Notes under the pieces: model-generated
Seen by the model: only the letters and a program-made list of their open reading frames with translations
Told to the model about the DNA's origin: nothing
The model's database searches: none
Translations under genes and position numbers: made by a program
NCBI RefSeq assembly: GCF_030159955.1
Contig: NZ_BSNK01000001.1
Span: 806,001-870,000 of the forward strand
DNA from: Algimonas ampicilliniresistens
GTDB lineage: Bacteria > Pseudomonadota > Alphaproteobacteria > Caulobacterales > Maricaulaceae
Direction of reading: 5' to 3'
Length of the DNA stretch: 64,000 bases
Part shown: positions 40,518-57,783 of the stretch, in pieces
How the letters are laid out: every line of letters starts with the position of its first letter
Position numbering within the stretch: the stretch's first letter is position 1

Positions 40518-40594
<77 letters not shown>

Positions 40595-40648
40595 AACACA
40601 CTCCACAACCCGTTGAATTTACTTATGGTTTTGGGCAGCGCCTATAGT

Positions 40649-40669
40649 GTGCCTAGCCTAGTGCCTAGC
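40649..40669 (+). repeat. left pair of GTGCCTAGC direct repeats (candidate integrase arm sites)
   Basis: GTGCCTAGC occurs at 40649-40657 and 40661-40669, a 12-bp period. The same pair with the same period lies at 57632-57652 next to the integrase start. Confidence 0.6.
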
Positions 40670-40691
40670 CGTCTCGATCGCTTGTCGTCTT

Positions 40692-40837
40692 TTACGGTGT
40701 CCGAAAAGTAAAGCCTTGTCGCTTCGCTGTGGCAAGATAATTCCATCAAGCCCGCGTTTCTGGAGTCCACATGGGCTCCCTTTTTACAGTGGCGGAAAAC
40801 CCCTCTCGCTTGCCTTGGCTTACGGTGTCCGAATAGT
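40692..40837 (+). repeat. 18-bp direct repeat near the left end of the element
   Basis: TTACGGTGTCCGAAAAGT at 40692-40709 recurs with one change at 40820-40837. Weaker copies of the core (TGTCCG, inverted) lie at 57691-57697 and 57733-57747 near the right end. These could be a second class of integrase or excisionase sites. Confidence 0.45.
40762..40785 (+). terminator. intrinsic terminator inside the left end of the element
   Basis: GGAGTCC (40762-40768) pairs with GGGCTCC (40773-40779), loop ACAT, followed by CTTTTT. It may stop tRNA-Arg read-through into the element. The interval 40595-41010 otherwise holds only repeats and no convincing gene. Confidence 0.65.
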
Positions 40838-41010
40838 CAGGGTTTGAGACTCTACAGGGCCGCTATTCCGCTATTCCTTTGTGAGCGATATGTGCGGTGT
40901 TAGCATCCCGTATTCTTCCCGTATTTTCGGGAAGATGGATTGCTCTCGACTTTCATAATCTCGACTCTGAAACGCTACTAAGATAGGCCGCTAGAAGGTG
41001 GGAGCCAATC

Positions 41011-41244
41011 ATGGGTCACTTGGAAGATTTGGAATATGAAGCCTATTGCGGGTTTCGGAATAACGTCGAGAAATTCTCAAAAAATCTAAGTGACTTGGAT
41101 CTTCTTGTTGTCCGGTCGATTGAGGTTAGTCGCGACCTTTACGACATGATTCGCAAACATGCCCCTGTCTCGGCATGGACGCCAAATGGTAAGTTTTTCA
41201 TAGACGGAATTGAGATTGTCCCTGTCCCGCATACCTCGAAATAA
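41011..41244 (+). CDS. hypothetical protein (77 aa)
   Basis: 77 residues preceded by a strong AAGGTGGGAG ribosome-binding site. Acidic N-terminal helix ('LEDLEYEAYCGFRNNVEKF'), no membrane segment and no recognised family. It is the first gene inside the left end of the element, transcribed rightward against most of the element's genes. Confidence 0.6.
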   Translation: MGHLEDLEYEAYCGFRNNVEKFSKNLSDLDLLVVRSIEVSRDLYDMIRKHAPVSAWTPNGKFFIDGIEIVPVPHTSK

Positions 41245-41338
41245 TCAGCGCCGTAATGGCTGGCTCGGCTGGATCGTCTTAGCCTTAGTAATTGCCATGT
41301 TGGTTAGTCTTGGACTTGATCTCATTTCATCCCCTTGA
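41210..41338 (+). CDS. possible small single-span membrane protein (42 aa)
   Basis: A TTG-initiated frame (41210, or 41216) overlaps the end of the previous gene and encodes a basic N-terminus ('RIPRNNQRRNG') followed by one hydrophobic helix ('WLGWIVLALVIAMLVSLGL'). The basic-then-hydrophobic pattern looks like a real small membrane protein, but there is no ATG and the ribosome-binding site is weak. Confidence 0.35.
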   Translation: MRLSLSRIPRNNQRRNGWLGWIVLALVIAMLVSLGLDLISSP

Positions 41339-41408
41339 CCGTTCTACTTTCGTTCCGTCATTAAGTGTTCCCGGCGGGCTCCCGGAGCAATGCGATACGG
41401 AGAGCGCT

Positions 41409-41759
41409 ATGACCTACAAAAGCACATTACAGCTATCTGATCTGAACAGTGGTGAGCGGTTGGAATTGACCTGTAATTCGTGCGGTTTCGCCCGGTTCGT
41501 TCGCTATCCACATGAGCTGAAGCATCCCGCTTCAGGGAAAGACATTAGCCACCTCTACCTTGACGAATTTGAGAGCAAAGCGAGGTGCGCAAAGTCGAGA
41601 ACCCGCGCGCTGGCCGGGCGCAAGTGTGGTGGGACAGTGAGGTTACTTGTCATCGATCCGGCGGACAAGCCGGAGCCATTCTCAGCAGGCATGGCGTCCG
41701 AGACTTTCGACCGTAAAGAGGTTTGGCGTCGTGAGCGTATTAGGCGCGCCAAGCGTTAG
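41409..41759 (+). CDS. zinc-ribbon-like hypothetical protein (116 aa)
   Basis: The ATG at 41409 is preceded by GGAGAG; the open frame continues upstream without a better start. Four cysteines form two pairs: 'LTCNSCGFARFV' and 'ARCAKSR...GRKCGG', a probable zinc ribbon in the first two-thirds, followed by a basic tail ending 'RRERIRRAKR'. No function is assigned; it could bind nucleic acid. Its stop overlaps the convergent SRAP gene by 4 bp. Confidence 0.65.
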   Translation: MTYKSTLQLSDLNSGERLELTCNSCGFARFVRYPHELKHPASGKDISHLYLDEFESKARCAKSRTRALAGRKCGGTVRLLVIDPADKPEPFSAGMASETFDRKEVWRRERIRRAKR

Positions 41760-42424
41760 CGCTCCATCAACTCCATCTGGTCGGCTGGATAAGGGCGCTG
41801 CAATCGCAGGCTGTCCGCTCCCCCGCTCAACCATTCAGCGCATTCGTCGGGGTCTGTGAGAATAACAGGCATGGCTTTAGGATGGATCGGCGCGACAACC
41901 TCATTCGGTTCTGTCGTCATGAATGCGTAGAGTCGCCAGTCATCGGGAAGCCACTGGCGGCGCTTTCTGCCTTCCACGGACTTCAACCGCTCGCCCTCCC
42001 ACGGTCGCCATATGCCCGCGAAAAATGAGGGCTCGGCTACGGTTGTGCGGAACCACGCGTTTCCGCCATTCACCTTGTCCGGCTCTGCGAAGCGATGGAA
42101 CGGCACTAAGCAACGAAACTCAGGTTCTCGCAGAAATTCACCGTTCACGTTCTTCCACCAACCGCTATTGAGGTTGCGAATGTTAGTTATCGGCTTCGGG
42201 CGTTTCTTTTCATCTTTAGGCGGAATGCCGGGGAACCCCCATCGCATCGTCTCGACCGAAGCCGTATTGCCGTCTGATAGGATGACAGGGCCGTCACTAT
42301 CCGCGCCCGTATAGTCGGGCTCATAATTGCGCGCTCGGCTCTTGGCGTCGAGTTCAAGGCCGATTTGGCGCAAGGTTTCGCTCGCTTCGGAGATTGAGAC
42401 GCGGTGTTCGTAAAGGTTGCACAT
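41756..42424 (-). CDS. SRAP-domain protein (SOS response-associated peptidase family, YedK/HMCES)
   Basis: 222 residues from the ATG at 42424, which places the catalytic Cys at position 2 ('MCNLYEHRVS') as the family requires. Other blocks are 'MRWGFPGIPP', 'TNIRNLNS' in place of the usual NARSE, 'CLVPFHRFAEPD' in place of EGYYEW, and 'IHPKAMPVIL'. SRAP proteins form a thiazolidine crosslink with abasic sites in single-stranded DNA and so protect them. The changed Asn/Glu neighbourhood suggests a divergent member. No LexA box was found upstream. Confidence 0.85.
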   Translation of the reverse strand: MCNLYEHRVSISEASETLRQIGLELDAKSRARNYEPDYTGADSDGPVILSDGNTASVETMRWGFPGIPPKDEKKRPKPITNIRNLNSGWWKNVNGEFLREPEFRCLVPFHRFAEPDKVNGGNAWFRTTVAEPSFFAGIWRPWEGERLKSVEGRKRRQWLPDDWRLYAFMTTEPNEVVAPIHPKAMPVILTDPDECAEWLSGGADSLRLQRPYPADQMELMER

Positions 42425-42507
42425 GGGAATCACGTGACAGTCTGAAAGTTATGTCGTCAATGCTTGCCTTGGTAAAACCTTAGTCTTCGTGAGGGACGAC
42501 ATAACCG

Positions 42508-42792
42508 TTATTCAACCGTATTTACGGTTATGGGCCGCTCTAGTTCATCACGAACCATCCTTATTGCTGCGGCTCGCAACGCGTCCGGGCGAAGCTCTCT
42601 CGCGGTCCTATAGGCGATGAATAGACGCACGGCATGGGGTCCGCCGATTGTGTCAAACCGAATAGCCAACCGTGCGCCCCCGGTCTTATCAAAGCGGACA
42701 TTCACAACGCCGCCCGCTTCAACAATCTCGGCTAAGACTTCGCTCGCTTCCCGCGCCTGCCTGTCGCTGTGACGTTCCGGCGCGTCTGTCAT
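42508..42792 (-). CDS. hypothetical protein (94 aa)
   Basis: 94 residues with a predicted beta-rich middle ('GGARLAIRFDTIGGPHAVRL') and a C-terminal helix. The family is not recognised. Its ATG overlaps the upstream gene's stop by 4 bp. It is the last gene of a leftward cluster (44015 to 42508) that faces the XRE regulator at 44180. Confidence 0.6.
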   Translation of the reverse strand: MTDAPERHSDRQAREASEVLAEIVEAGGVVNVRFDKTGGARLAIRFDTIGGPHAVRLFIAYRTARELRPDALRAAAIRMVRDELERPITVNTVE

Positions 42793-43337
42793 GCGGCTTT
42801 CTCAATATCGAATTGCCTATCGTAATTCGGGATTTGTCCGGGCCAAATAGCGTCTAAGTCGGATTGTAGCGATTCCATCGCCTCGCTATGTCGCGGGTGG
42901 TCTCCGTCATCTGGATTTGTCGAGTCGAGATAGAGGCGCATCTTGTCCAGCAAATCCGCCACGGTTGCCGCTGGCGTCGCCAATGCATCGAAACGCGCTT
43001 GATCTTCCCTTTCTGCGGCCTTCGTCTGCACCGGGTCAGCGCCTAGGTCTTCTAGCCAATTTGGGTTGGCTTCCCGCGCCTTTTCCATGGCCGCATGATA
43101 GTCGATCCATTCCGCCATTTGATTAGCAAACGGAGTGGCGAGGGGTGCAAGCAAATGTCCGGGTTCACACTCCATTGAAACGGCAATCGCTTCTAACTGT
43201 GTCTGGTTATAAGGCATTGTCCCGTCTTCCAAGCCCTGTAGGGTCTGTTCGATAATCCCGGTCATTACGGAAAGCTCCGCAAGGGATAGGCCGCGCCGTT
43301 CGCGCTTCGCCCTGATTTGGTTTGTTGCTTTGGTCAT
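42789..43337 (-). CDS. helix-turn-helix (XRE-type) protein
   Basis: 182 residues from the ATG at 43337, which overlaps the upstream gene's stop by 1 bp. The N-terminal XRE-like domain (about residues 6-62) has 'IRAKRERRGLSLAELSVMTG' and 'TLQGLEDGTMPYNQTQLEAIA'. The rest is acidic and helical and may mediate partner binding. As part of the leftward early cluster it may act against the divergent XRE regulator, like a Cro or antirepressor. This is inferred from position only. Confidence 0.7.
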   Translation of the reverse strand: MTKATNQIRAKRERRGLSLAELSVMTGIIEQTLQGLEDGTMPYNQTQLEAIAVSMECEPGHLLAPLATPFANQMAEWIDYHAAMEKAREANPNWLEDLGADPVQTKAAEREDQARFDALATPAATVADLLDKMRLYLDSTNPDDGDHPRHSEAMESLQSDLDAIWPGQIPNYDRQFDIEKAA

Positions 43338-43678
43338 TATGCGGCCTTCCCGTCTGGTTTTGACTGCGCAAACCAAGGTCGTGTGTAGGCTTGCAAGGTG
43401 GTGAGTGTGAGTGTTTCGGTGCATTGATCTAAGAGCCAATCAAGGCGCGCATCATCATCGTAGTGCATTGACGCCATCGCCTCGCGCTCTCGCGTTTCGA
43501 TAGCTTCGCGCTCGTCATAGGTGAGCGCGGTTCCGTGCTTTTCGCGTCTGGCGTGGGTTGCCCAATAAGTCGCGATAATACGGCCTGTCGGCGCTGTCAG
43601 GAACGATAGGAACGGCTCGCCTATGGCTCGGATATAGATCGGCCCGGCGTCATGGTTTTGAGGTGTCGGATCGGTCAT
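43337..43678 (-). CDS. hypothetical protein (113 aa)
   Basis: 113 residues; the core 'FLSFLTAPTGRIIATYWATH' may be amphipathic rather than membrane-spanning, followed by a Glu/Arg-rich helix. No family recognised. Tight spacing to both neighbours (4 bp and a 1-bp overlap) puts it in the leftward cluster. Confidence 0.6.
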   Translation of the reverse strand: MTDPTPQNHDAGPIYIRAIGEPFLSFLTAPTGRIIATYWATHARREKHGTALTYDEREAIETREREAMASMHYDDDARLDWLLDQCTETLTLTTLQAYTRPWFAQSKPDGKAA

Positions 43679-43682
43679 GGCC

Positions 43683-44015
43683 TTACGCTCCCATCTGAGT
43701 GTGAAGGTAACGCTCGGAACCCTTGCCCCATGCGAGGTGTGCCGGGCGCGGGTTGCGATCCAAGAGGGACGCGGTGCGGGGCTGGCGATATTTTGCCATC
43801 ATAGCCCGCTGTCTGGCGCGACGGACTTGCGCTTGACGCTCTCGGTCGATTTGCGAGCGGAACGAAGCCCATGCGGCGCGTAGGGCGTCCGCGAAGGTCA
43901 CAATGCCCCTTAACGGGCGTTTCATGAACCCATGCGCGCGCCACATGATTGCCCGGCGTCCGTAACGCGAAACAACTTCGCTATTGCTTGCCGGGGATGG
44001 AGTCGTGTTATTCAT
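43683..44015 (-). CDS. hypothetical basic protein (110 aa), phage-associated type
   Basis: 110 residues, strongly basic in the middle ('RGIVTFADALRAAWASF', 'RQAQVRRARQRAMMAKYR'). Similar 'F.ALR.AW...K' proteins are common in alphaproteobacterial prophages and islands, function unknown. It is the first gene of the leftward cluster, 87 bp from the palindromic operator at 44103. An overlapping frame at 43675-43944 was rejected. Confidence 0.6.
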   Translation of the reverse strand: MNNTTPSPASNSEVVSRYGRRAIMWRAHGFMKRPLRGIVTFADALRAAWASFRSQIDRERQAQVRRARQRAMMAKYRQPRTASLLDRNPRPAHLAWGKGSERYLHTQMGA

Positions 44016-44147: not shown

Positions 44148-44164
44148 GTGTAAATAATATGCAC
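44148..44164. promoter_or_regulatory. operator O2, imperfect copy
   Basis: GTGTAAA-TAA-TATGCAC has the same 7-3-7 layout, one perfect half-site and a diverged second half. It lies 15 bp upstream of the preferred regulator start at 44180 and overlaps the alternative ATG at 44159. Confidence 0.5.
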
Positions 44165-44179
44165 GTTCTAAAGACCGCT

Positions 44180-44458
44180 ATGGCTAGACTTTCAGATTCC
44201 GATTTCACTCCATCGCTTTGCAAGGCCGCGCGAGCGCTAGTCGGGTGGACGGCGCAAGAGCTTGCGGATAGCACCGATGAGGTTGCCCCACGGACACTGC
44301 GCAAGTTTGAAAATGGTGGGTCTGTCAGGGACGGCACACGCGATGCAATTCGAGCGGCGTTAGAAGCCGCTGGCGTCGAATTTATCAACGGGGGCAGGCC
44401 CGGTGTTCGCTTGATCGGGAATCTAAGCGATTGCGGCCCGCGTAATGACTTCCGATAA
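44180..44458 (+). CDS. XRE-family transcriptional regulator, probable element repressor
   Basis: 92 residues from the ATG at 44180; the ATG at 44159 would add seven and run over operator O2. 'DFTPSLCKAARALVGWTAQELAD' and 'APRTLRKFENGG' form the helix-turn-helix, followed by 'AIRAALEAAGVEFINGG' and 'GVRL', a pattern of short XRE regulators widespread in alphaproteobacteria. Divergence from the leftward cluster across two matching palindromes fits a phage-type repressor that controls both directions. Confidence 0.75.
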   Translation: MARLSDSDFTPSLCKAARALVGWTAQELADSTDEVAPRTLRKFENGGSVRDGTRDAIRAALEAAGVEFINGGRPGVRLIGNLSDCGPRNDFR

Positions 44459-44483: not shown

Positions 44484-44697
44484 CCTGTTCCATGCCTGTT
44501 AAAACAGGCATCTTCTTCACTGTTCTGCCACTGTTATATCAGTGAACTGCTACGCTGTTCTTACGCTGTATTAACAGGGTAACGGGCTGTCAGAAAAAGG
44601 CCGGGCGCTGTGCTGTTCTTGTGCTGTTTTATCAGCAGGCGGCTTCGGTGTTTTCTTCGGTGTATTATCACCGCTGTTCTTACGCTGTATTAAGAGC
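44484..44697. repeat. array of six covarying arm-arm-antiarm repeat units
   Basis: Each unit has a short arm, the same arm again 11-12 bp later, and its reverse complement about 11 bp after that. The arm sequence differs between units but is kept within a unit. Arm positions: CCTGTT 44484, 44495, antiarm 44503; CACTG 44518, 44529, 44540; GCTGT 44554, 44565, antiarm ACAG 44574; GCTG 44612, 44623, 44633; CGGTG 44646, 44658, 44669; GCTG 44673, 44684, degenerate antiarm 44694. The array fills the convergent gap after the XRE gene. Unit 1 (9-bp hairpin 44492-44511 then CTTCTTC) could terminate that gene. Confidence 0.75.
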
Positions 44698-45480: not shown

Positions 45481-46020
45481 TTATGCGGCCAACTTTTCAG
45501 ACCATTCCGATAGCTTCGCTTCAAGGCGTTCCGGGTCGTTTCTATATTGCGGCAAACAGGACAACGCTTTGCGCATCCCTTCCACTGTGCGCGGTCCTGT
45601 CGAACGGCCACCGTGGAAGCGGCAACGGTTCCGGCCCGGCTCACTCATAGCCCGGCATTGAGCGCCGTCCTTTTTGCGAGCGCCACAGGGAACCCGGCGT
45701 TTCGTCGCCTTGCTGTGGTCGCGATCCCATACAGCGCAATCGACATAGTAGCGTTTATAGCTCTTAGCCCGCTCCCCAGCTTTGCGCAGGGCGAAGGCGA
45801 GCCCGCGCGTTTCAATTCGAGTGGTCGTTAGGTCGCTGGCGAATATCTCGGCTGCCTTATCGAATGTGAGCCTATTGATCCGATCCCGGTCCTGCAAGGT
45901 GAGTTGCACCATACTAGGCGAGCGGTAGGCTATCAGGTCATCCCAAAAGGACGGCGGGACAGCCACGTTGGGGATTTGCGGGATGGTGAGCGGATCGGAG
46001 TTATAGGGCTCGATAGACAC
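45481..46020 (-). CDS. HGG-type zinc-binding phage/island protein (179 aa)
   Basis: 179 residues. The C-terminal module 'RVPCGARKKDGAQCRAM' followed by 'RCRFHGGRSTGPRTVEGM' is the Cys-Cys-Cys-His element of the 'HGGxSTGPkT' proteins found in many phages and islands, often near packaging genes. The N-terminal part ('VAVPPSFWDDLIAYR' and 'RGLAFALRKA') resembles the protein encoded at 51683-52042. Molecular function is unknown. Confidence 0.65.
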   Translation of the reverse strand: MSIEPYNSDPLTIPQIPNVAVPPSFWDDLIAYRSPSMVQLTLQDRDRINRLTFDKAAEIFASDLTTTRIETRGLAFALRKAGERAKSYKRYYVDCAVWDRDHSKATKRRVPCGARKKDGAQCRAMSEPGRNRCRFHGGRSTGPRTVEGMRKALSCLPQYRNDPERLEAKLSEWSEKLAA

Positions 46021-46386
46021 GCCGATTCATACCATATCGCGGCGCTCAAAGCAAAAATACGGGCTGGGCAAGTCGCACTGGAAACTAAAGTTTTTTCAAC
46101 CTGCTTTCCCGCTCTCAAACCACGCACAAGGCGCGCGTAGTGGTCCCGAAACCCTTACAGCGATGGGCGTGCTGTCATAGGGCAGGGGCGACCGCATTAG
46201 GGCGGTCTTAGGGCTAGGCGCTCGCTGTCATGGCCGGGCGGATTAGGTCCTTCGCGTAAACCAACATTCACCTAGCAATCTTTCCGCAGTCTTACCCCAT
46301 GCGAAGCGGCCCTAGGTTCAACATTATTCAACATTTGATGAAGTCGCTTTGCCTCTCTCGTAATGGGGGCGGTCTATATCCATTCG
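46021..46386. other. intergenic interval with short repeats and a gene remnant
   Basis: No convincing gene. Contents: TTCAACATT twice with a 10-bp period (46317-46325, 46327-46335), a perfect GACCGC/GCGGTC hairpin near 46170-46190, a GCTTT-CCGCTCTCAAA motif (46103-46119) also found at 45443-45459, and a 22-bp stretch (46290-46311) nearly identical to part of the gene at 54326-54676. Confidence 0.5.
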
Positions 46387-46638
46387 CTATAGATCAAAGT
46401 CGGCGTCCATCCACGGGGCAGGGTAAATCCATCCGAAGGGCCGACGCCACAAGGGGGAAGCGAGGATTTTAACCTGCCATATGTTTTTGCGTTGATTAAG
46501 ATATTCGACGGTTTCTGTTAGCTTTTCTGGATCGTCATGCAGCCTTAGAAGGCTATCGATCATTTCAGCCCGCCTTTTGGATGCAAGGCGCACTATAAGC
46601 CACAAGATGAAAAACAGCACGGCAAGAGCATAAGACAT
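46387..46638 (-). CDS. small membrane protein (83 aa)
   Basis: 83 residues with one N-terminal hydrophobic helix ('ALAVLFFILWLIVRLA'), a basic stop-transfer 'SKRRAE', a helical middle, and an aromatic C-terminus ('RRPFGWIYPAPWMDAD'). No family recognised. It lies just downstream of the two large ejection-like genes on the same strand and could belong to their transcript. Confidence 0.55.
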   Translation of the reverse strand: MSYALAVLFFILWLIVRLASKRRAEMIDSLLRLHDDPEKLTETVEYLNQRKNIWQVKILASPLWRRPFGWIYPAPWMDADFDL

Positions 46639-46673
46639 GCTCCTTAATGGCCTGTGCCGCTAATTGGTTCAAG

Positions 46674-48848
46674 TCATGTGCCGTTAGGGGCCATTACCCC
46701 TGCTGCAATACCAGACCGAGACTCTAGCGCTTTGGCAAGCTGGTAGGCACGTTTTTGAGACGCTGGCGATAGGTTCGACATAGCATCTGCTAACTCTTGC
46801 GGTGTTCCTGCAAGACGTAGGGAAAGCGCCTCAATGACTGCCGGATTTTCTCGCCGGGCCATACCGCCAAGGGTTCGGATATAGCGCTTTGCGCTTTCTT
46901 GCGGTGTGGCTAGGTTCTCAGCTGCGAAAGAGACGGCGCGGCCAACGGGGGCGCTTGCCGCCCTGCGAACGTCTTCAACATTTTTTTGCCGAGGCTGCGT
47001 CTGCGAGCCCATTGAGCCTAGAACACGCCTACCGCTCGCGGTCATAGCGCTTTCCTTATCGAGTAGCGAAACAATGCGCGCGGACTGTTCATCGGTTAAA
47101 ACGGTTCTGAATACGTCTCTCAAACCCTCGGCATTAAAGCGGGTCGTCGCATCGTGACTAAGGCTCGCCTTTTTCAGTCTGTCATCAACACCTTGCAAAA
47201 GCCCGGCCAATAGGTGCTGGCGTTCCGACTTGGAATAGTTTGCGGTCGTTTTGGATACGTCTTCTGCACGCAATTTAAGCGCATTGCGGCCATACTCCAA
47301 AGCGGCTTGGTTCGCCTTCGTTCCAGACCAGACGGCGCGTGCTTTTGCATACCCTGGCACTTGCGCGTCTAGCTCGCTCAATAGCTCTTGGCGCAGGCGA
47401 TCAACGGCGCGCGCTTCGCTCCCTTTGCCTTGCCGGAACCTTGCCGAAACAAGGTCATCTAGCGCCTCTTTGGCAACCTGATAACTGGCGAGTGTTTCGT
47501 TCCAAGGGTCATCACCGGAATCAGCGGCCATCCTGCGCGCTTTCTTCATAGCGGCGCGCATGGACGGGCGTTGCAACAGACGCTCAAGGGTCGGGGTTTT
47601 TTGGATCGGCTCACCCAACACGGCCTCATAAAGCTGCGTTCCCTCACGGCGTAGCGTTTCGGCTGCGTCGTTGCTTAGGGACGTGAAATCATCCGCTTCG
47701 ATGATACGCTTGACGCCTTCACTAATGCGGGCTTGTTGCTGGCGTTGCTGCTTAGTCACAGCGTCCAAGAATATGCGAGCGTGGCCAGTTTGTGCGCCCT
47801 CGGCTCCCTGCGCCCAATTCTCTAAGCCAAGCTTCTGAAAGGCCAATTGCGGGTCTGATGGGTCAACATCTCTAATCATTGTCAGCGCGTCGTTATGATC
47901 TACGCCGTTCGCCTTGCGAATTTGTGCAATTATCAATCGATCCGCCTTTGATGCTTTTCCGGTAGACGCGATCCGGGCAATACCTTGACTGAGTGCGCGC
48001 GTCATGGGCTGCAATACTGCGCCGCCAAGGCCACCCGCGACTGTGCCGACAACACCGCTTTGCAATCGGTTCGACATCTCGCCTTCACCCGTGCCAACGC
48101 CATAAGCGCCACCATAGGCCGCGCCTGTTGCTGCGCCTTGTTTCACAGCGCCCCGGAAACCCGTGGCGGCTCCCGCGCGTGTTAGTCCGGTGCCGCCTGT
48201 CGCCATGCCGCCCGCGACTTCGCCAGCAAGCGAGGCGACGGGGTGTTGCGCTGTGTTGCGGCTCTGCGCATCTGAAAAATCGCCCATGCTTTCGCTGTAA
48301 GACGGTGCGCCGGGTAGCATTGCGCTAACACCGCTCTCAATCTCATCGTTAAAGCCTAAGCTCGCGCCGCGCTGTGCGCTCTGTATGGTCGCAGTAGTCC
48401 GCGAATGGCCCGCAAGGTCATCAAGGGCGCTTAAGCCCCTTATGGGGCCGCTCTGGACGCTTCCGACCCGTTCTTGCACCCAATCAGCGACCGGGTTATC
48501 AGATAAGCGCTGAACCATACCCATCAAACCGGGCTGTAGCTCTTGCCCTCGTGCGTCGTTGAACATGCCGGGCTTGCGAGCGTTCGGATCGGTCGCTTCG
48601 TCTAAAGCGCTCTCTTCGCGGGTTTCTTGCTGCATAAGCTCACTAGCTCGCTTCATTTGTCGCAACTCATCAAGCCGTTTCATCTTGCGCAGCGTGTCCA
48701 GACGGGCGCGTTTTTCGGCCATAGGGTCGATAAGACCCATAGGCGACTGGAAAGATTGCCCTGCGTCCATAGGGGTCTGGACCGGGGCCAGTGAGGTTAT
48801 TCCGGCGCTGTCAGCGACTTGGACCGGGGCGGGTAATACCGGGTTCAT
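46674..48848 (-). CDS. large phage-virion-like protein, possible DNA-ejection protein
   Basis: 724 residues. The N-terminal charged coiled-coil region is followed by a Gly/Ala-rich segment (about 150-275, 'AGEVAGGMATGGTGLTRAG', 'GVVGTVAGGLGGAVLQP') with weak hydrophobic character, then a long helical domain containing 'LDDLVSARFRQGKGSEARAV' and 'VPGYAKARAVWSG'. That combination is typical of phage internal/ejection proteins that form a channel for genome delivery. The start overlaps the stop of the upstream gene by 4 bp. No structural phage genes surround it. Confidence 0.5.
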   Translation of the reverse strand: MNPVLPAPVQVADSAGITSLAPVQTPMDAGQSFQSPMGLIDPMAEKRARLDTLRKMKRLDELRQMKRASELMQQETREESALDEATDPNARKPGMFNDARGQELQPGLMGMVQRLSDNPVADWVQERVGSVQSGPIRGLSALDDLAGHSRTTATIQSAQRGASLGFNDEIESGVSAMLPGAPSYSESMGDFSDAQSRNTAQHPVASLAGEVAGGMATGGTGLTRAGAATGFRGAVKQGAATGAAYGGAYGVGTGEGEMSNRLQSGVVGTVAGGLGGAVLQPMTRALSQGIARIASTGKASKADRLIIAQIRKANGVDHNDALTMIRDVDPSDPQLAFQKLGLENWAQGAEGAQTGHARIFLDAVTKQQRQQQARISEGVKRIIEADDFTSLSNDAAETLRREGTQLYEAVLGEPIQKTPTLERLLQRPSMRAAMKKARRMAADSGDDPWNETLASYQVAKEALDDLVSARFRQGKGSEARAVDRLRQELLSELDAQVPGYAKARAVWSGTKANQAALEYGRNALKLRAEDVSKTTANYSKSERQHLLAGLLQGVDDRLKKASLSHDATTRFNAEGLRDVFRTVLTDEQSARIVSLLDKESAMTASGRRVLGSMGSQTQPRQKNVEDVRRAASAPVGRAVSFAAENLATPQESAKRYIRTLGGMARRENPAVIEALSLRLAGTPQELADAMSNLSPASQKRAYQLAKALESRSGIAAGVMAPNGT

Positions 48849-50473: not shown

Positions 50474-50525
50474 GGCTAGCCCTGCCTTTTTAGTTTTCAC
50501 CCCCCGCTCACACGGGGCGAGTCGG

Positions 50526-50630
50526 GGCTAATGACGTTACGCGGGGCGGGGGATGAAATCGTATGTTCTGTGTTCCAAGTCGCCGGGGTTTGCCCGTCAT
50601 TAGCCTGAAATAACGGTATACAAATACCGT
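50526..50630. promoter_or_regulatory. nested inverted repeats upstream of the ejection-like operon
   Basis: GGCTAATGACG (50526-50536) is perfectly inverted at 50595-50605 (11 bp, 58-nt gap), and ACGGTAT-ACAA-ATACCGT (50613-50630) forms a second palindrome beside it. These lie between the start of the 542-residue gene and the end of the next upstream gene. They are candidate operators or a terminator pair. Confidence 0.5.
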
Positions 50631-50655
50631 ATGCAATGAAAGTGATTTTACCATT

Positions 50656-51150: not shown

Positions 51151-51168
51151 GGTCTTTTTCTTTCGTGA

Positions 51169-51681
51169 TTACGTGTCGGAATTGGATTGCTTGCCAGCCG
51201 TGGCGAATAGGTTATTAGCCTGCCTATGAAGCTCGTTCTTATTCGGCTTTGCAGACGCTTTGCGTCCACGGCGGCTACCCATGATAGGTTGACCGCCTGC
51301 GCCCTTCATCTGTTTGACCAGCGCCCTGTCGGCATTCGCCATATTCTCGGCTTTGCGCCGCTTCCCGTTTTTGAGCCACATGCTTTCCAGCTTGACGCCA
51401 ACTGGATCGCCCGGCCCTGAGCTAGACGCGTTGTTCGGGTTTGTGCTGAGAACACGCATGTTCGTCACGTCTGGATGCTCCCAAATTGCGCGATATTTTT
51501 CCATGATGGAATGAGCGGTTCCAGCTTCCTCTTTAACGAAGGTGAGACGCATCGCCCCGTCTTTGCCGTCAAAAGCGCTGCGCAACAGCTTTCGCTTGAT
51601 AAGCGCGATAACGTCCGGGCAATCCTCAAGGTTCGCGCGCAAGTCGATTTGAATAAGAAACGGTGTGTAGACGCGGTTCAT
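51169..51681 (-). CDS. hypothetical protein (170 aa)
   Basis: 170 residues from the ATG at 51681, 1 bp after the upstream stop; an in-frame ATG at 51711 is less likely because it lies inside the previous gene. The first half is a predicted alpha/beta domain ('FLIQIDLRANLEDCPDVIAL', 'AMRLTFVKEEAGTAHSIMEK'), and the second half is basic with 'MGSRRGRKASAKPNKNEL', a likely nucleic-acid-binding tail. Family unknown. Confidence 0.6.
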   Translation of the reverse strand: MNRVYTPFLIQIDLRANLEDCPDVIALIKRKLLRSAFDGKDGAMRLTFVKEEAGTAHSIMEKYRAIWEHPDVTNMRVLSTNPNNASSSGPGDPVGVKLESMWLKNGKRRKAENMANADRALVKQMKGAGGQPIMGSRRGRKASAKPNKNELHRQANNLFATAGKQSNSDT

Positions 51682-51682
51682 A

Positions 51683-52149: not shown

Positions 52150-53218
52150 ACTGGGTTTCTTTAGGTAAGGCATAAACTCCCCTCCCGATCCGGCGCACTT
52201 CATTGGCTTTGGTCATTTTCGTAAGCAGAACGTCCACGGCATTGCGGCTCTTGCTGAGTTGGTCGGCTATGTCTTGGGCTCCGACGCCTGATTGCGGCCC
52301 AGCTGCGATGACATCGACAACCTGCCGTCGTTCTTCTGACAGGCGGAGCGCATCGGTCCCTGTGATATGGGTCCAGACGCTCCCGCTAAATGTGAGCGGT
52401 TCTTCAAATTCGGGAAGGTCGCGGCCACGCCCATAGAACACACCGTCAAAGTCGCCGCTTGGATCGTGCGATAAAATTACCGTTGTGTCTGCGGACGCGG
52501 TTAAGCCCATTGTGCCGCTCACAGCTTCAAATGGGTCTGAGGTGGTTGAACCGCCTTTCTTCGTGTGATGGATGACGATAACGCTAATGCGATAAAGGGA
52601 AGCCCATCTGTGTAGCTCATGCATCGCCTTGTAAACGGCGTCATATTCGCTTTGCTGCGACCTTGCGGGCGGGCGGATTTTTTGCAGCACGTCAACAATG
52701 ACTAGGCGCGGGTTGTCGGCTGCATGACGCCAAGCCTCAAAAACCTTCATAGCGCCGCTATCAATTCGGTGCATGGAGTTCCAAGAACCTGTGTCATAGA
52801 TTTGAAGATTTTCGCCTATCGAATCCCAATTCTGTTGATCATGGTAAGGCAGGACTTTTTGCATTCGATCTTGAATGCGCCGCCCATTGTCCTCAAGCGC
52901 GAGTAAGAGGACGCTCCCCCTGCGAACATCTTTCCCAAGGCATTCGCCGCCTGTTGCAACCGCTAGCGCTAAATCGAATGTAAGCCACGATTTGCCTATT
53001 TTTGGCGGGCCTGCCAGTAGGGTTAAGCCTTCTGGGATTAAGTCGGGAACAACCCAGCGCAGCGGCGGGAATTTCGTCGCCATAAGCTCGCCGATATTGG
53101 TCGGCTGCTTAAACGCAACACCATCCTCTAATTCCACGCCGGGCATTACTGTGACCGCTCCGTCATAGTCTGGATTTGTTGGAACGCTCTCTAATGGATC
53201 TAGGTTTGTATCTGTCAT
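52148..53218 (-). CDS. RepA-like AAA family ATPase (replicative helicase type)
   Basis: 356 residues from the ATG at 53218, which overlaps the primase-like gene's stop by 4 bp. Walker A 'LLAGPPKIGKSWLTFDLALA' (about 67-86), Walker B 'PRLVIVDVLQKI', and 'ISVIVIHHTKKGGSTTSDPF' with 'VSGTMGLTASADT' place it in the RecA-like AAA_25 family related to plasmid RepA hexameric helicases. A C-terminal winged-helix-like region follows. It probably unwinds element DNA with the Toprim protein. Confidence 0.85.
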   Translation of the reverse strand: MTDTNLDPLESVPTNPDYDGAVTVMPGVELEDGVAFKQPTNIGELMATKFPPLRWVVPDLIPEGLTLLAGPPKIGKSWLTFDLALAVATGGECLGKDVRRGSVLLLALEDNGRRIQDRMQKVLPYHDQQNWDSIGENLQIYDTGSWNSMHRIDSGAMKVFEAWRHAADNPRLVIVDVLQKIRPPARSQQSEYDAVYKAMHELHRWASLYRISVIVIHHTKKGGSTTSDPFEAVSGTMGLTASADTTVILSHDPSGDFDGVFYGRGRDLPEFEEPLTFSGSVWTHITGTDALRLSEERRQVVDVIAAGPQSGVGAQDIADQLSKSRNAVDVLLTKMTKANEVRRIGRGVYALPKETQ

Positions 53219-54336
53219 GTTGCGCCTTTCGTGCGCTGACCCAAAAGGGCATCGTTCCAATCATTGCAGCCGACAAAGGCCGGGTTTGCAGCGGCGGGCG
53301 GATAGGGTCGGGATGATATGCCAAGGGCGCACAAGCGGGCTGTCAGGTCCGCAGCGGCCTTCTGGCCCTGCCCCCCTGCATCGTCGTCATGGGCGATCAA
53401 GACGGCTTTCGTCCCGGTCGGTGGCGTCCAGTTGGCAATGCCGTCAGCTGATAAGGCGGCGTGACAGGGGAAGCCCATCAACTCTTGGAGAGACAGGGCG
53501 CTTTCAATCCCTTCGGCGACCGCAAGCAATCCGTTCCCGTCTGGACCTGCCAGCGCGACCGTTCCGCCCTTAACCTTGCCGCGCATCTTGCGGACCCTAT
53601 CGCCAGCGTTTGGGTTCTTGCGCCCGTCCGGTGTGAGGTAGGTTGTATGGAGCCCGATCGACTTACCCGTTACGCAATCGACCACACGGGCCATCATGGC
53701 AGGTGAGGTGAAGCGTTGGACCCATTTAGGCTTGCCGTCCGACTTCACGCCTTCTTGCTCCCAAAAGGGCAAGGCAGGGTGGAACCGAATGTCATGGCTT
53801 AGTCCGTCCAGTAGACTTGCAGCGGACAAGCCCCGCGCCCCGTGTAGATAAGCTCTAAGCGGCTCACCTGTCGCCAGCGTCTCTCTCCATAAGGATTTGC
53901 ACCGCGCATTGGCTCGCGCCTCCCTGTCGGCCTCGCCTGCAACCTTATGGGCAGGCTTTGGCGTTGAGCGAGGGGCAGGCCGACTTAGGCGCGCCTCTCG
54001 CTGTGGTGAGGCGTTAGACCAGTGCAAACGGGCCGCAATATCCTGCTTGAACGCGAGGGACGCGCCGGGGTCGTTATGGCAGTGAACGCCGATCCCATAT
54101 TGCAAGCCAGGATTCGGCATGATGACCGTTGACCGATTAGCCCGGCTCTTATCTGGCGATGGAACGCGGGCAATAACGCCGTGCATCGTTCCGCCTAACA
54201 GTTGGCAGGCTTCGCGAACGTGCGCCTCGCATTCATGGTCTGGAACCGGATCGAATGTGACCATTCCGATAGTCCCAAACCGGGCATAGGCGGCGGCTGC
54301 ATCTCGGTTAAAGTCTAGGGTTGGATTATGCATCAT
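53215..54336 (-). CDS. Toprim-domain primase-like protein
   Basis: 373 residues from the ATG at 54336 (a second ATG follows at 54333), preceded by GGGGG. The C-terminal half has the Toprim signature: 'LLAVAEGIESALSLQEL' with the catalytic Glu and 'AVLIAHDDDAGGQGQKAA' with the metal-binding acidic cluster. The middle ('ETLATGEPLRAYLHGARGL') is typical of Toprim primase/helicase proteins of plasmids and phages. The N-terminal zinc domain is not obvious. It acts with the neighbouring ATPase in element replication by inference. Confidence 0.85.
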   Translation of the reverse strand: MMHNPTLDFNRDAAAAYARFGTIGMVTFDPVPDHECEAHVREACQLLGGTMHGVIARVPSPDKSRANRSTVIMPNPGLQYGIGVHCHNDPGASLAFKQDIAARLHWSNASPQREARLSRPAPRSTPKPAHKVAGEADREARANARCKSLWRETLATGEPLRAYLHGARGLSAASLLDGLSHDIRFHPALPFWEQEGVKSDGKPKWVQRFTSPAMMARVVDCVTGKSIGLHTTYLTPDGRKNPNAGDRVRKMRGKVKGGTVALAGPDGNGLLAVAEGIESALSLQELMGFPCHAALSADGIANWTPPTGTKAVLIAHDDDAGGQGQKAAADLTARLCALGISSRPYPPAAANPAFVGCNDWNDALLGQRTKGAT

Positions 54337-54676
54337 TGCCCCCTTTCGACCGGGTGGCGCGAGCATGATAAACGTTCTTACCCATGCGAAGCGGCCACAA
54401 GGCGCAATCAAGCGCCGTGCATTTGCGAACTTCGCTAATCACACTGCCGCAACAGTCGAGGCACTTGGCCCGTATGGCTTTGATAGGGCTTGGCGGGTGT
54501 CCTAGGTCCAGAATTTCCCGCTTAGAAAGTGAGGTGGGGTTAACCCCCACTTTTTCGCCTCTATCAGTGTCATATGGTGACACTTCTAGGTAGGCGTTCC
54601 GGTCCAGTGGATTACAGGCAGACGAACCCGGTTCGCTGGTTGATTTTGACGGGCCTTGTTGGTAAGGGCTATTCAT
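54326..54676 (-). CDS. small Cys-rich phage/island protein (116 aa)
   Basis: 116 residues from the ATG at 54676, overlapping the previous gene by 8 bp; the long upstream extension of the frame is antisense-like and rejected. 'IRAKCLDCCGSVISEVRKC', 'ALDCALWPLRMGKN' is a well-known small phage protein pattern with four or five cysteines, probably zinc-binding, function unknown. Its 3' end overlaps the primase-like gene start. Confidence 0.75.
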   Translation of the reverse strand: MNSPYQQGPSKSTSEPGSSACNPLDRNAYLEVSPYDTDRGEKVGVNPTSLSKREILDLGHPPSPIKAIRAKCLDCCGSVISEVRKCTALDCALWPLRMGKNVYHARATRSKGGNDA

Positions 54677-55040
54677 CCGAACCCCCATCGCCTGCCAGCT
54701 TGGTATTTGGATTTGAAGCCGACCCGGTTTGCCCCGTGGTCGGTTTCGTCTTTTCAGTAGGTCGCAGTTTGATCCGCTCTCGAAGCGTGTAACGGCCATA
54801 CCAACCAACACCGCCCGGCTGCGCAACCTTCTCCATATGGATAGGCACACCGTATTTTGTGCGCAGCATGAAAACATAATGAGATAACCGCAAACCGGGA
54901 TGGGTAAGAGATGAAATGCCCAACTCACCATTTGCGATAAGGTGAACCAAGGTTTCATTCTCACGTCTGGCTGTGACTGTGAGTGTTGAACCGTCCGCGC
55001 GCTGGAATGTCTGCAAGCGGGCTTTGACCTGCGCAGCCAT
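54669..55040 (-). CDS. winged-helix domain protein (123 aa)
   Basis: 123 residues from the ATG at 55040. 'LVHLIANGELGISSL' and 'HPGLRLSHYVFMLRTKYGVP' form a helix-turn-helix, followed by 'GWYGRYTLRERIKL', the wing. It resembles winged-helix proteins found between alpA and the primase in alphaproteobacterial islands. Its start is 1 bp from the alpA stop. Confidence 0.7.
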   Translation of the reverse strand: MAAQVKARLQTFQRADGSTLTVTARRENETLVHLIANGELGISSLTHPGLRLSHYVFMLRTKYGVPIHMEKVAQPGGVGWYGRYTLRERIKLRPTEKTKPTTGQTGSASNPNTKLAGDGGSDE

Positions 55041-55041
55041 C

Positions 55042-55251
55042 TTAAGCGGCCTCGGCAGGGGATTCATACAGCGCACGAATATCGGCCACTTTCCAGACGG
55101 TCGTTCTAGGGCCAAGCTTTTGCGGCTTTGGGAAGCGGCCTGATTTAACGCCGTCCCACCATGTCGATTTAGACACAGGGATAGGGCCAGCAGGGGCGAG
55201 TATTTGGGAAAGCCTCACTAGGCCAGTTTCAGGAAAGGACGTGTTGTCCAT
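55042..55251 (-). CDS. AlpA-family transcriptional regulator
   Basis: 69 residues with 'GLVRLSQILAP', 'PVSKSTWWDGVKSGRFPKPQ', 'LGPRTTVWKVADIRAL', the AlpA/MerR-like winged helix. AlpA-type proteins switch on excision and replication genes in satellites and prophages. A palindromic operator lies about 80 bp upstream (55321-55346). It is the first gene of the leftward replication cluster. Confidence 0.9.
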   Translation of the reverse strand: MDNTSFPETGLVRLSQILAPAGPIPVSKSTWWDGVKSGRFPKPQKLGPRTTVWKVADIRALYESPAEAA

Positions 55252-55320
55252 TGTCGTAGCTCCATGACGGTTGTCGATGGATGCTGTTTGATGGAGTTCG
55301 TTTTCCGATTGGGTAGCTTG

Positions 55321-55346
55321 CGAAATTGATTTCGTAGGTTACGAAA
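55321..55346. promoter_or_regulatory. palindromic operator upstream of alpA-like gene
   Basis: TTTCGTA-GGT-TACGAAA (55330-55346) is a perfect 7-3-7 palindrome. It overlaps a second palindrome, CGAAAT-TG-ATTTCG (55321-55334), giving three CGAAAT-type half-sites in a row. Confidence 0.6.
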
Positions 55347-55358
55347 TTAGCTCATGAT

Positions 55359-56408
55359 TTACGCGAGTTGATCGCTAACGCTTTCTTCGGCCTCTACGAG
55401 ATATGTCTGAACCGTGCGGGGATTTATACTGACGCCTAGACGTAAAAGGTCACTCGTAATTGCGTTAGCTACTGAGAGGTCTTCGTTTTTCGCGGTGGGA
55501 TCGACCTTCGTCCTTCGCTCGAATTGATAGTCCCCTTTGCGAGTTAGAATGTAGATAATCTTGAGAAGAGCCGCCTTTGTATTATGGTGAAGTGGATTGG
55601 CTTCGCGGACTTCCCTGTCACCGTCAACCTGAGCGGCTTTACTCTGCTCGGATCGGAGTTGATCAATCTGCTCCAAAAGCTTATTAACTTCCCCCTTCTG
55701 CTCATTTCGTATCTGAGTGACCGCGCAATCATATCTATCTTGAAGGTCTCGATAGAGAGAGTGCCAATCCGCAATCACGTAACCTAGCGACTCAACCGCC
55801 TCTTGCATTTCTAAAGGCAGGCTCCAATTCATCCTGTTAGACCAAGCGATGAATTCTGAAGTCACCGGGACTGCTGTAAGCTGGCCGTTTTGGACCGCCC
55901 GAACGGCTATATCTCGTCGCCTGAAAAATGTTTTCGCGGTGGAAGATTTCGTTCTCTCGTTTTCTAAATCAGTGACTTTTATACGGTCTGGGTCGCGGTT
56001 GATTGAGAGCAAGCAAGCTTCATCTATCCGCCAAGAACCTTTTTGCGCCCAGTGTTCAAAATCGGGCTTATAAATCGTGCGATTGAACCAAAGAGTGGAG
56101 TCATATTCCTCTTGAAGCTTCACGCTCTCAGCGGCGGAAAGCTCCCAAACTTCATCATCAGTAAGTTCCTCTAACCGACGCACTTCCGCCGTATATTGAG
56201 AGGCGGCTTCGTCATCTTGAGGCTTTGCTGTTCTAGATTCCTCCCTTAGACCTTTCGGGAACAATGTTTCTCGTATCTTCGCAATTTTGACTAATTTTGG
56301 AGTAACCGTTTCCGGTAAAGCCCCTTCATACTCATAAGCGGGATAGTGAAAGGGGAATTTCCTTCTAAGCAGAAAGCCAATTCTGTTTTTCCTATTACCA
56401 CCGCTCAT
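55359..56408 (-). CDS. mobile-element-associated hypothetical protein (349 aa)
   Basis: 349 residues with a more AT-rich coding sequence than its neighbours. The region around 'FEHWAQKGSWRIDEACLLS' resembles a motif found in many uncharacterised island proteins. A coiled coil (about 215-265) follows, and the C-terminal domain 'TKAALLKIIYILTRKGDYQF' plus 'SDLLRLGVSINPRTVQTYL' is seen in proteins encoded beside integrases. Function unknown. The start overlaps the integrase stop by 4 bp. Confidence 0.65.
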   Translation of the reverse strand: MSGGNRKNRIGFLLRRKFPFHYPAYEYEGALPETVTPKLVKIAKIRETLFPKGLREESRTAKPQDDEAASQYTAEVRRLEELTDDEVWELSAAESVKLQEEYDSTLWFNRTIYKPDFEHWAQKGSWRIDEACLLSINRDPDRIKVTDLENERTKSSTAKTFFRRRDIAVRAVQNGQLTAVPVTSEFIAWSNRMNWSLPLEMQEAVESLGYVIADWHSLYRDLQDRYDCAVTQIRNEQKGEVNKLLEQIDQLRSEQSKAAQVDGDREVREANPLHHNTKAALLKIIYILTRKGDYQFERRTKVDPTAKNEDLSVANAITSDLLRLGVSINPRTVQTYLVEAEESVSDQLA

Positions 56409-57607
56409 CTGGATTGTGTCCTCGCGGCTAGGTCAATCACATTTGCTGTTTCACCTGAAACAAACCTTGCCCAATCTTCCATGAGCGCCCGGCGCTTCTC
56501 TAGAGCCCTCTTACGCCTATAGGATCGTTCCACAACGGAGCCGACACTGTGAGACAATGCGGCCTCGGCAACCTCTTTTGCGTAGTTTGTCCGGTCGCCA
56601 GCGAAATCTCTAAACGTTGAGCGGAATCCGTGGACGGTAATGCTGGTTTGCCCCATCCGTCTCAACAGTTGCGCCATCGCCATATTGGACAAGGGTTTGC
56701 CGGGCTTATGACCGGGGAATAAAAAACCGTTAGGGCCGCAATCTGCTAACAGCGGCTCGACTATGTCTACGGCCCTGCGTGATAGGGGTATGACATGGTC
56801 TTCGTCCATTTTCATACGAGCGCCGGGAATTGCCCATATCTGGTTAGGCAGGTCAAATTCCGACGCAACGCAAGCGCGGGTTTCTGTCGTCCGGGTGGCT
56901 GTGAGAATTAGAAGTTCCAATGCACGGGCCGAAAGCGCCTCTTGTTCGCGAAGCTCGACCATGAATGCGGGCAGGGCGTCATAGTCCATTGCTGGATGAT
57001 GCTTTACGCTCTTGCGGTCGTGTTTGGGCAGGATTGGTTCAAGCCCGCCCCGCCATTTTGCCGGGTTTGTTCCCTCTCGCCATCCGCGCCCTTCGGCATA
57101 GTCGAATATGATTTCGAGGTGTGACCGGGCAATGCGAGCCGTTTCGGGGGTCTTCGACCATATTGGTTTTAGGACGCGCAAAATGTCTTCACGACCGATA
57201 TTCGACACGTCTCGGCTGTGTAGATGCTTGCAGCGTTTTAGTGCTGTCCGCTCCCATTTTTGTTTGGTTGCGGGGTTCATCGTGTCTAGCTGCCGCGAAG
57301 CCATACACGCTTGCGCAGCTTTCAAAAAAGTGACGCCCTCCGCAGGCTTAAGCGCTTCTCGCGGGTCAAGACCCATTGCGAGCGCGTCTCGCGCTGTCTG
57401 CGCCTTCGTCCGCGCAGCCTTTAGGGACACAAGCTGAAATGAGCCAAGCCCGATTTCACGCTGGCGACCATGACGCTTCCACATAAACAGCCAAGATTTA
57501 CGCCCGCCCTTTTGAATGCGTAGGTATAAGCCGCCACCGTCGCTATGACGCCCGGTCCCTTTAAGCGCCTTCACGCCCTTAGCTGTGAATTTTTCTAGTC
57601 CTGCCAT
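56405..57607 (-). CDS. int: tyrosine-type site-specific integrase with DUF4102 arm-binding domain
   Basis: 400 residues from the ATG at 57607; the frame upstream runs over the repeat region and lacks similarity. The N-terminal DUF4102 domain has 'KFTAKGVKALKGTGRHSDGG' and 'REIGLGSFQLVSLKAAR', followed by a SAM-like core-binding domain. The catalytic residues lie in 'TATRTTETRACV' (Arg), 'ITVHGFRSTFRDFA' (His-x-x-Arg) and 'LSHSVGSVVERSYRR' (His and the nucleophilic Tyr). It should integrate the element at tRNA-Arg. Repeats at 57632-57652 sit 25 bp upstream of its start. Confidence 0.95.
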   Translation of the reverse strand: MAGLEKFTAKGVKALKGTGRHSDGGGLYLRIQKGGRKSWLFMWKRHGRQREIGLGSFQLVSLKAARTKAQTARDALAMGLDPREALKPAEGVTFLKAAQACMASRQLDTMNPATKQKWERTALKRCKHLHSRDVSNIGREDILRVLKPIWSKTPETARIARSHLEIIFDYAEGRGWREGTNPAKWRGGLEPILPKHDRKSVKHHPAMDYDALPAFMVELREQEALSARALELLILTATRTTETRACVASEFDLPNQIWAIPGARMKMDEDHVIPLSRRAVDIVEPLLADCGPNGFLFPGHKPGKPLSNMAMAQLLRRMGQTSITVHGFRSTFRDFAGDRTNYAKEVAEAALSHSVGSVVERSYRRKRALEKRRALMEDWARFVSGETANVIDLAARTQSR

Positions 57608-57631
57608 ATCGTGCCTGCCAGAGCGTGAACC

Positions 57632-57652
57632 GTGCCTAGCGCCGTGCCTAGC
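57632..57652 (+). repeat. right pair of GTGCCTAGC direct repeats (candidate integrase arm sites)
   Basis: GTGCCTAGC at 57632-57640 and 57644-57652, same orientation and same 12-bp period as the left pair at 40649-40669. A near copy (GTGCCTGCC) lies at 57611-57619. The position just before int suggests autoregulation as well. Confidence 0.6.
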
Positions 57653-57772
57653 GCAAGGTCTGGTTACTATAGGACTAGCACGGATAACATCGGACACAAA
57701 GCCCCGTGGTAACTAGAAATGTGGGTGATTAACCGGACAACATAAAACGCCGTTGGACTGTAGTTAGACGCA

Positions 57773-57783
57773 TGTCAGGTGCG
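57773..57783 (+). repeat. candidate attR core
   Basis: TGTCAGGTGCG, identical and co-oriented to the tRNA-Arg 3' end at 40581-40591, 166 bp upstream of the integrase start. Confidence 0.6.

Follow-up and report, generated by a model that had tools for sequence, protein, structure and literature searches.

The 64-kb window analysed here (positions 806001-870000 of contig 1 in the 3.26-Mb genome of Algimonas ampicilliniresistens) contains an island of 17.2 kb (40592-57783), which extends from a tRNA-Arg gene to a copy of the 3' end of that tRNA and carries two large genes, ej551 and ej724, with which this study is mainly concerned. Read leftward from its right end, the island encodes an integrase, a 349-residue protein (u349), an AlpA-type regulator, two small open reading frames (ORFs), a Toprim primase, and a RepA-type ATPase, followed by three small proteins, the 551- and 724-residue proteins, an 83-residue protein, and two further small proteins. 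Beyond these lie four iteron-like repeats, a divergent helix-turn-helix (HTH) gene, and four small genes, one of them a further HTH gene; leftmost are a gene of the SRAP family and then two small rightward frames.

An ejection-protein pair in a capsid-less island

An earlier note on this DNA described ej551 and ej724 as phage-virion-like, and PHROGs and tblastn searches bear this out, with both matching podoviral ejection proteins. The gp20-like ej551 (48848..50500, minus strand) matches phrog_24864 (3.7e-17) and phrog_2534, named 'released from the phage upon host infection' (1.1e-6). Its conserved C-terminal domain (residues about 385-500) matches proteins of six phage records in the tblastn listing (two of them the same phage); the motif MRxxSPTGGALG is kept in most of these matches, and one is annotated 'ejection protein.' The gp16-like ej724 (46677..48848, minus strand), corresponding to the last ejection protein, matches phrog_5880 (6.7e-42) and gp15 of Rhizobium phage RHph_I1_23. 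The ATG of ej724 overlaps the ej551 stop codon by four bases (ATGA), and the homologues of the two genes in Mae-JY35 and DB virus 2 lie side by side with a one-base overlap. Judged by similarity and gene order, the two proteins are homologues, in the phage arrangement, of the ejection proteins of short-tailed phages. Viral contigs searched with the 724-residue protein alone gave no match, and a sequence search of solved structures returned none for the ej551 profile and weak unrelated matches only for the ej724 profile.

None of the 23 proteins predicted in the island matched a capsid, portal, large-terminase, or tail family, 20 having been run against Pfam and PHROGs and the other three against PHROGs only; a 179-residue protein gave a sub-threshold match to a small-terminase family (E 0.053) across 44 residues. 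The proteins lacking a family are all 349 residues or shorter, which is too short for a portal protein by typical portal sizes. Terminase, portal, or capsid genes among the uncharacterised proteins had been named beforehand in the earlier note as one of two findings that would speak against a satellite, and the search for them was negative. As a control, 13 elements (the window, a sister island, five of six Escherichia coli elements, two of seven from Stenotrophomonas, and those of Comamonas, Nitrobacter, Rhizobium, and Lysobacter; see below) were compared with 13 genes of phage Kapi1, genes from five further phages, and those of a prophage. Virion-gene matches in these elements were to ejection proteins only, plus a phrog_651 protein in E. 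coli, and all eight phage loci run as positive controls received three to six structural labels each; these loci had been picked for structural genes already detected, and one (L089) is the same prophage as one of the references. The sensitivity of the control is limited, because the large terminase of the Nitrobacter element was missed.

When 385 genomes of the class were searched with ej551, three had a match, including the window's own genome. There, a second ej551 homologue lies on contig 2, at a locus also found by the primase search (94%), within a sister island of about 16 kb (L297, L299; extent estimated). DNA blocks shared with the window are 90-97% identical, except for 336 bp at 85%, and over whole alignments the proteins are 94.2% (primase), 99.2% (u119), 90.6% (u180), 95.5% (u179), 98.2% (u110), 97.7% (216-residue HTH protein), and 95.7% (u94) identical, with synonymous distances (dS) for these seven backbone genes of 0.01-0.22. 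The integrase (46%) and AlpA differ, RepA is alike only over the first 37 residues, and u349, u164, u227, u83, and the SRAP protein have no sister counterpart at E 1e-3. The sister's ejection proteins (605 and 594 residues) belong by profile to the same two families (4.6e-44 and 2.5e-20; in PHROGs the first matches phrog_24864 at 1.4e-16 and the second is unnamed) and are 31.2% and 27.9% identical to those of the window, with synonymous distance saturated. In the window, blastn and the junctions delimit u83, ej724, ej551, and u164 as a discrete 4849-bp insertion (46334..51182, minus strand) where the sister has 98 bp; the sister cassette spans 5354 bp at a place where the window has 82 bp. With a different pair at a different place, the ejection genes are therefore a discrete, exchangeable cassette.

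The boundaries are marked by two sets of repeats. The 3' end of tRNA-Arg(ccg) (40518..40594, plus strand; ARAGORN) forms the left attachment site, and, as the earlier note had observed, it is repeated at the far border: TGTCAGGTGCG stands at 40581-40591 and 57773..57783 (plus strand, exact 11-mer matches), and these are its only exact copies in the window, with 0.05 expected from shuffling. This repeat is weak on its own, because a 12-mer of the tRNA end is found again at 50231, within a gene. Stronger boundary evidence comes from GTGCCTAGCNNNGTGCCTAGC, which occurs exactly twice in the window with up to two mismatches allowed, close inside both island ends (0.00 expected). At each of these two places (40649..40669 and 57632..57652, plus strand), GTGCCTAGC stands twice with a 3-bp spacer; the double motif is absent from the rest of the window and has the pattern expected of integrase arm-type sites, which these putatively are. 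A 41-bp imperfect direct repeat (76%; 40678-40718 and 40806-40846) lies near the left attachment site. In a genome of the same genus, the distance from the same tRNA-Arg to the right-flank genes is 4.9 kb, versus 20.5 kb here; the right flank was not found in the other nine retrieved stretches.

The remaining genes are on the minus strand unless noted. The earlier note's integrase (430 residues; 56408..57697), AlpA-type regulator (55045..55251; Pfam 1.7e-5), Toprim primase-like protein (Toprim_3/DUF7146; 53218..54411), and RepA-like ATPase (AAA_25; 52151..53260) all exceed Pfam cut-offs, with PHROG matches as well for the integrase, primase, and ATPase. Its winged-helix protein found no such support: a 212-residue frame (54329-54964) has no family match, and a 148-residue protein (54672..55115; 89% identical in the sister) belongs to the unnamed phrog_25676. 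We note that the 212-residue frame corresponds to two overlapping-region ORFs in the sister, which means that the frame is either disrupted in the sister or misread in the window. The cassette is preceded by u119 (51686-52042; 99% identical in the sister) and u180 (51172-51711; 91-93%), both backbone proteins, and within it u83 (46390..46638) has one N-terminal hydrophobic segment; u179 (45484..46020; phrog_6177, 1e-6; 96-97% identical in the sister) follows it. The four iteron-like repeats (about 29 bp each, 69-100% alike; 44514..44696, plus strand) could be an operator or, as a candidate, the replication origin; part of the array is retained in the sister (contig 2 near 1491195-1491314), where a 95% identical block holds one full GCTGTTCTTACGCTGTATTAA and a short match. 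The divergent HTH protein (44159..44455, plus strand) is 96% identical in the sister, and u110, u113, the 216-residue HTH protein, and u94 (42511..44015) are 96-98% identical. The SRAP-family protein (41759..42433), which like the iteron-like array is an addition to the earlier note, is read as cargo, a MazF-like gene standing at this place in the sister.

The family-less u349 (55362..56408), between int and AlpA, also heads other islands: the int-u349-AlpA module occurs at the head of restriction/defence-like islands in other genomes of the order (L029, L031/L032, L035/L036, L045, and L046), their cargo judged by ORF reading. We rejected the trio as a satellite marker, since several relatives with the module precede apparent restriction/defence genes; it is an integration module common to more than one island type. 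Ten proteins tried against NCBIfam gave no cut-off match, and ten tried in PADLOC gave weak HTH matches for one only. An internal duplication around the ejection pair (u119/u179 and u164/u227) is not claimed, the similarity being weak (single-comparison E 3e-4 and 0.002).

Comparable elements in other bacteria

A scan for the ej551 domain in one genome per species (84,980 species) yielded 29 loci, of which 11 have structural matches, 12 are unsorted with several phage-like (L078, L081, L084, L085, L088, L090, L092, L094, L095, L098, L102, and L103), and six have no detected structural genes. These six are in Stenotrophomonas maltophilia EA1 and D457 (L082/L083), Comamonas, Nitrobacter, Rhizobium BK251, and Lysobacter aestuarii (the others being L080, L087, L093, and L100). 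An integrase is present in five of them, the L. aestuarii locus (L080) stopping at a contig end before any integrase, and primase-type genes are present in Comamonas, Nitrobacter, and Lysobacter, with the DUF7146 and Toprim_3 domains of the window recurring in Nitrobacter. In all six, the ej551 homologue is followed by a second virion-type protein: Stenotrophomonas and Lysobacter have phrog_26400 'DNA ejection protein', Comamonas has a lysozyme-like virion protein, and Nitrobacter and, weakly, Rhizobium have an ej724 homologue. An automatic sorting into phages and satellites (66 with, 83 without, and 33 too short) was not used as a count, because its references miss divergent phages.

Two loci depart from this pattern. 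The Nitrobacter winogradskyi element (L093, 1-12531) has an integrase, a Toprim/DUF7146-type primase, a helicase-primase, an ejection pair, and its own large terminase, with no portal or capsid detected, and is possibly an intermediate strategy in which the terminase is kept. Ruegeria meonggei (L092, 7555-12369) carries an ejection cassette of a 270-residue frame, a u179-like small protein, ej551, and ej724, with no integrase or replication gene detected in the 18-kb stretch and bacterial-looking neighbours.

Five more Stenotrophomonas-type elements were found on IMG/VR contigs (L194, L198, L199, L202, and L204), with no structural match. These five share an integrase (96-99%) and an AlpA-type gene, their ejection proteins are mosaic, and in five of the seven Stenotrophomonas elements a tRNA-Met precedes int in the retrieved stretches. 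Relatives of the first ejection protein of L083 (86% and 74%) lie on contigs with structural genes (L193 and L195), which are candidate helpers. Between EA1 and D457, the ratio of nonsynonymous to synonymous substitution rates (dN/dS) is 0.087 and 0.083 for the ejection genes and 0.035 for int. On a tree of 135 domains, the eight satellite rows need seven label changes, at least five of them forced by well-supported branches (7.9 on average with shuffled labels); the tree is rough, with few columns, an unsettled bootstrap, and one satellite row on a long branch, and unlabelled rows may conceal further satellites. The seven changes suggest, therefore, that ejection genes have been taken from phages several times.

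One functional relative is EcCIMP1, a phage-inducible chromosomal island (PICI) of E. coli MP1. In the available portions of its description (PMC11773190), it excises on helper induction and is transferred by Kapi1, a P22-like podophage (Lederbergvirus), which mobilised it in the laboratory; its authors noted the resemblance of three genes to DNA transfer and DUF2824 proteins, and they suggested a role in packaging. We find at this locus a P22-type operon of phrog_651 (2.4e-66), phrog_598 'DNA ejection' (1.5e-69), phrog_917/2534 (3.3e-44 and 1.7e-42), and phrog_770 'DNA transfer protein' (3.7e-120). In all six E. coli regions read, the four genes come after int, an HTH regulator, and a primase, and the annotation from int to the far border lists no capsid, portal, or terminase; in L268 and L269, prophage remains lie outside, by the integrase end, and the gp16-type gene of L269 is marked as a pseudogene. 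L267 and L268 have near-identical backbones (primase 99.6%, gp7-type protein 99.6%, and phrog_651 protein 98.0%) and ejection pairs that are 33.3% (gp20-type) and 23.3% (gp16-type) identical. Of 5426 complete E. coli genomes, 245 have the primase contiguous with a type B ejection pair and 65 with a type A pair (at least 80% coverage), as raw counts that include overlap between types and places not inspected individually. An Ant-type antirepressor is encoded in both Stenotrophomonas L083 (5407-6249) and E. coli L267 (19377-20210), and could induce a helper prophage.

A proposed role for the pair in helper particles

The ejection proteins of P22 are reported in the accessible parts of PMC10883804 to go ahead of the DNA and form a conduit, which SieA blocks, and the determinants of escape from SieA lie in gp16 and gp20. 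P22 with Sf6 gp16 and gp20 together is infectious, and with either alone it makes non-infectious particles, in similar numbers and with Sf6 gp16 seen in the particles tested; HK620 ejection genes confer about 10% plating on SieA hosts (PMC10883804). These hybrids therefore indicate that pairs from another phage assemble, that they function only if matched, and that they can alter sensitivity to exclusion. Because such pairs work only when matched, gp20/gp16-type genes are expected to be kept and exchanged jointly, which neither decay nor packaging predicts.

We consider it probable that the island is an integrative satellite of short-tailed phages whose own ejection pair is used in helper particles; the helper should be a short-tailed phage. 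Such a phage would induce the island, which would excise from tRNA-Arg and replicate, and the island pair would be loaded into helper procapsids, beside or replacing the helper's own proteins, giving particles that open the cell envelope via a satellite conduit. The gp20- and gp16-type proteins would be carried and exchanged jointly, since they function only as a matched set, and the favoured advantage would be in delivery, notably past exclusion systems of the SieA type directed against helper ejection proteins. For these satellites generally, the comparisons make it most likely that they put their own matched pair in helper particles, gaining delivery past exclusion or spoiling the helper particles. 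A broader proposal, which we hold tentatively and would not expect to stand in full, is that a widespread, repeatedly evolved satellite class overrides the helper's last step, replacing its ejection conduit by an interchangeable gp20/gp16-type cassette, and so enters exclusion-protected cells, with the cassettes diversifying by swaps under the pressure of exclusion.

An alternative retains the same satellite and has the pair sabotage its helper, the proteins entering capsids and mispairing so that many helper particles fail to inject and competition is reduced. The non-infectious particles of the single-gene P22 hybrids fit this, as does the contribution of EcCIMP1 to superinfection immunity against Kapi1 (PMC11773190, available portions). 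We nonetheless think sabotage unlikely: one mismatched protein would suffice as a poison, yet both are kept, both ejection genes are under purifying selection in S. maltophilia, and Kapi1 induction and lytic growth are reported not to be restricted by EcCIMP1 (PMC11773190).

The earlier note had also allowed for a defective phage, and a podophage remnant that retained an integrase, replication genes, and two ejection genes by chance would account for the podoviral character of the latter, the Ruegeria cassette with no integrase seen nearby being what decay would leave. We regard a remnant as highly improbable, because the sister island carries a different pair; the two islands of one genome keep only this pair of virion genes, as different alleles at different positions, the same gene set recurs in unrelated elements, dN/dS is about 0.085 in one S. 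maltophilia comparison, and a functional E. coli counterpart exists in EcCIMP1, so far as its published account is available. The other half of the earlier proposal, a helper-dependent satellite with ejection proteins, is retained as the best reading. Equally improbable is action of the pair in the resident cell, for example in membrane-associated superinfection exclusion: both proteins are envelope-acting by homology, and EcCIMP1 adds to the immunity of Kapi1 lysogens (PMC11773190, in part), but the joint carriage of full phage-like pairs, in E. coli along with the head-morphogenesis protein phrog_651, is better explained by virion assembly.

Several observations weigh against a satellite that supplies helper particles with ejection proteins. 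The phage similarity of ej551 is limited to its C-terminal part, phrog_5880 has no named function, and 11 of the 23 island proteins have no credible family match. The genes are rare, ej551 occurring in 2 of 384 other genomes of the class, and ej724 in 0 of 137 others of the family and, weakly, in 4 of 398 others of the order. No direct repeat of at least 12 bp was found at the sister ends in the stretches compared, and the comparison with empty sites that the earlier note had proposed gave flanks that lie closer together in the same-genus genome, in an interval filled with other DNA rather than a clean empty site. Values of dN/dS are 0.22 for a 247-residue rep gene (EA1 versus D457) and 0.53 for ej551 of L198/L199. 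Transduction of EcCIMP1 by Kapi1 is rare, and the available text of PMC11773190 reports no test of its ejection genes. Finally, no podophage was seen in the genome, which has one match to the large-terminase family phrog_2; other terminase families were not searched. That match sits in an RcGTA-type gene transfer agent (GTA) cluster outside the window (contig 1, about 682334-695008), with terminase, portal, capsid, GTA_TIM, and Rcc01698_C domains, and such an agent might itself move the islands.

Precedents and known systems

Within the open-access literature, exclusive of preprint servers and most subscription papers, we found no description of ejection-protein satellites as a class, and to that extent the suggestion that this is not a described class stands; it is qualified by EcCIMP1, which is a precedent though not described in such terms. 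EcCIMP1 is thus an already published member, and the ejection mechanism, if true, would be new. The accessible parts of PMC6893505, PMC13216270, and the ejection-protein review PMC8954989 hold nothing on satellites with ejection genes, and the word 'satellite' is absent from the main text of the last, as available. AH14b of Pseudomonas was rejected as a precedent, since, in the portions of PMC4936722 available, its unassigned proteins are reported absent from capsids and the helper carries genes for a long tail.

The virion part carried by the island is a DNA-delivery machine. Accounts of known satellites usually centre on capsids that are stolen or resized and on packaging that is redirected. 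Should the pair enter particles, satellites would influence which cells can be entered next, SieA-type exclusion systems would join the satellite-helper conflict, and a set of little-studied genes, present in hundreds of E. coli genomes, would gain meaning. EcCIMP1 and Kapi1 make the replacement of ejection proteins directly testable.

Among known systems, the podophage ejection operons (RHph_I1_23, Mae-JY35, DB virus 2, and the P22 gp7-gp20-gp16 type) have the same pair in the same order; unlike the island, the phages have portal, capsid, and tail genes around it, and an overlap of one base rather than four. Remains of a head/portal/terminase block, as would be expected of a defective podophage prophage, were not found in the island. 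Gram-negative PICIs are about 10-20 kb in size, and the island resembles them in its length, its defined site with TGTCAGGTGCG and GTGCCTAGCNNNGTGCCTAGC as direct repeats, and its integrase and AlpA-type regulator followed by primase and replication genes, with u349 interposed between int and AlpA; as in these PICIs, there is no capsid, portal, tail, or lysis set, the two ejection genes being the exception. Capsid-forming PICIs and P4-like satellites bring capsid genes or capsid-size factors, the latter carrying a psu/sid/delta set. They are like the island as satellites that bring or redirect virion parts, and unlike it in that no capsid-forming or head genes and no capsid-size factors were found in the island; general PHROGs scans gave no psu/sid/delta match at E 0.1, and no search was aimed at these genes. 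The Stenotrophomonas elements share with the island int, an AlpA-type gene, small genes, an ej551 homologue, and a second ejection protein, but have a different integrase and other genes, with Ant in L083 (the one tested) and a phrog_598 protein and an acetyltransferase added in L194. Closest is EcCIMP1, in which podoviral ejection genes likewise come after an integrase, an AlpA-type regulator, and a Toprim primase, and in which searches detected no capsid, portal, or terminase; its gp20-like protein falls in PHROG 2534, as does ej551, and its attachment core is short (10 bp, according to the available part of PMC11773190). It differs in having four such genes (phrog_651, 598, 917/2534, and 770) rather than two, a primase with Toprim and DUF927 domains, and a helper that is known; it also encodes a PerC/ANR regulator and an antirepressor of the Ant type, and no counterpart of either was found in the island.

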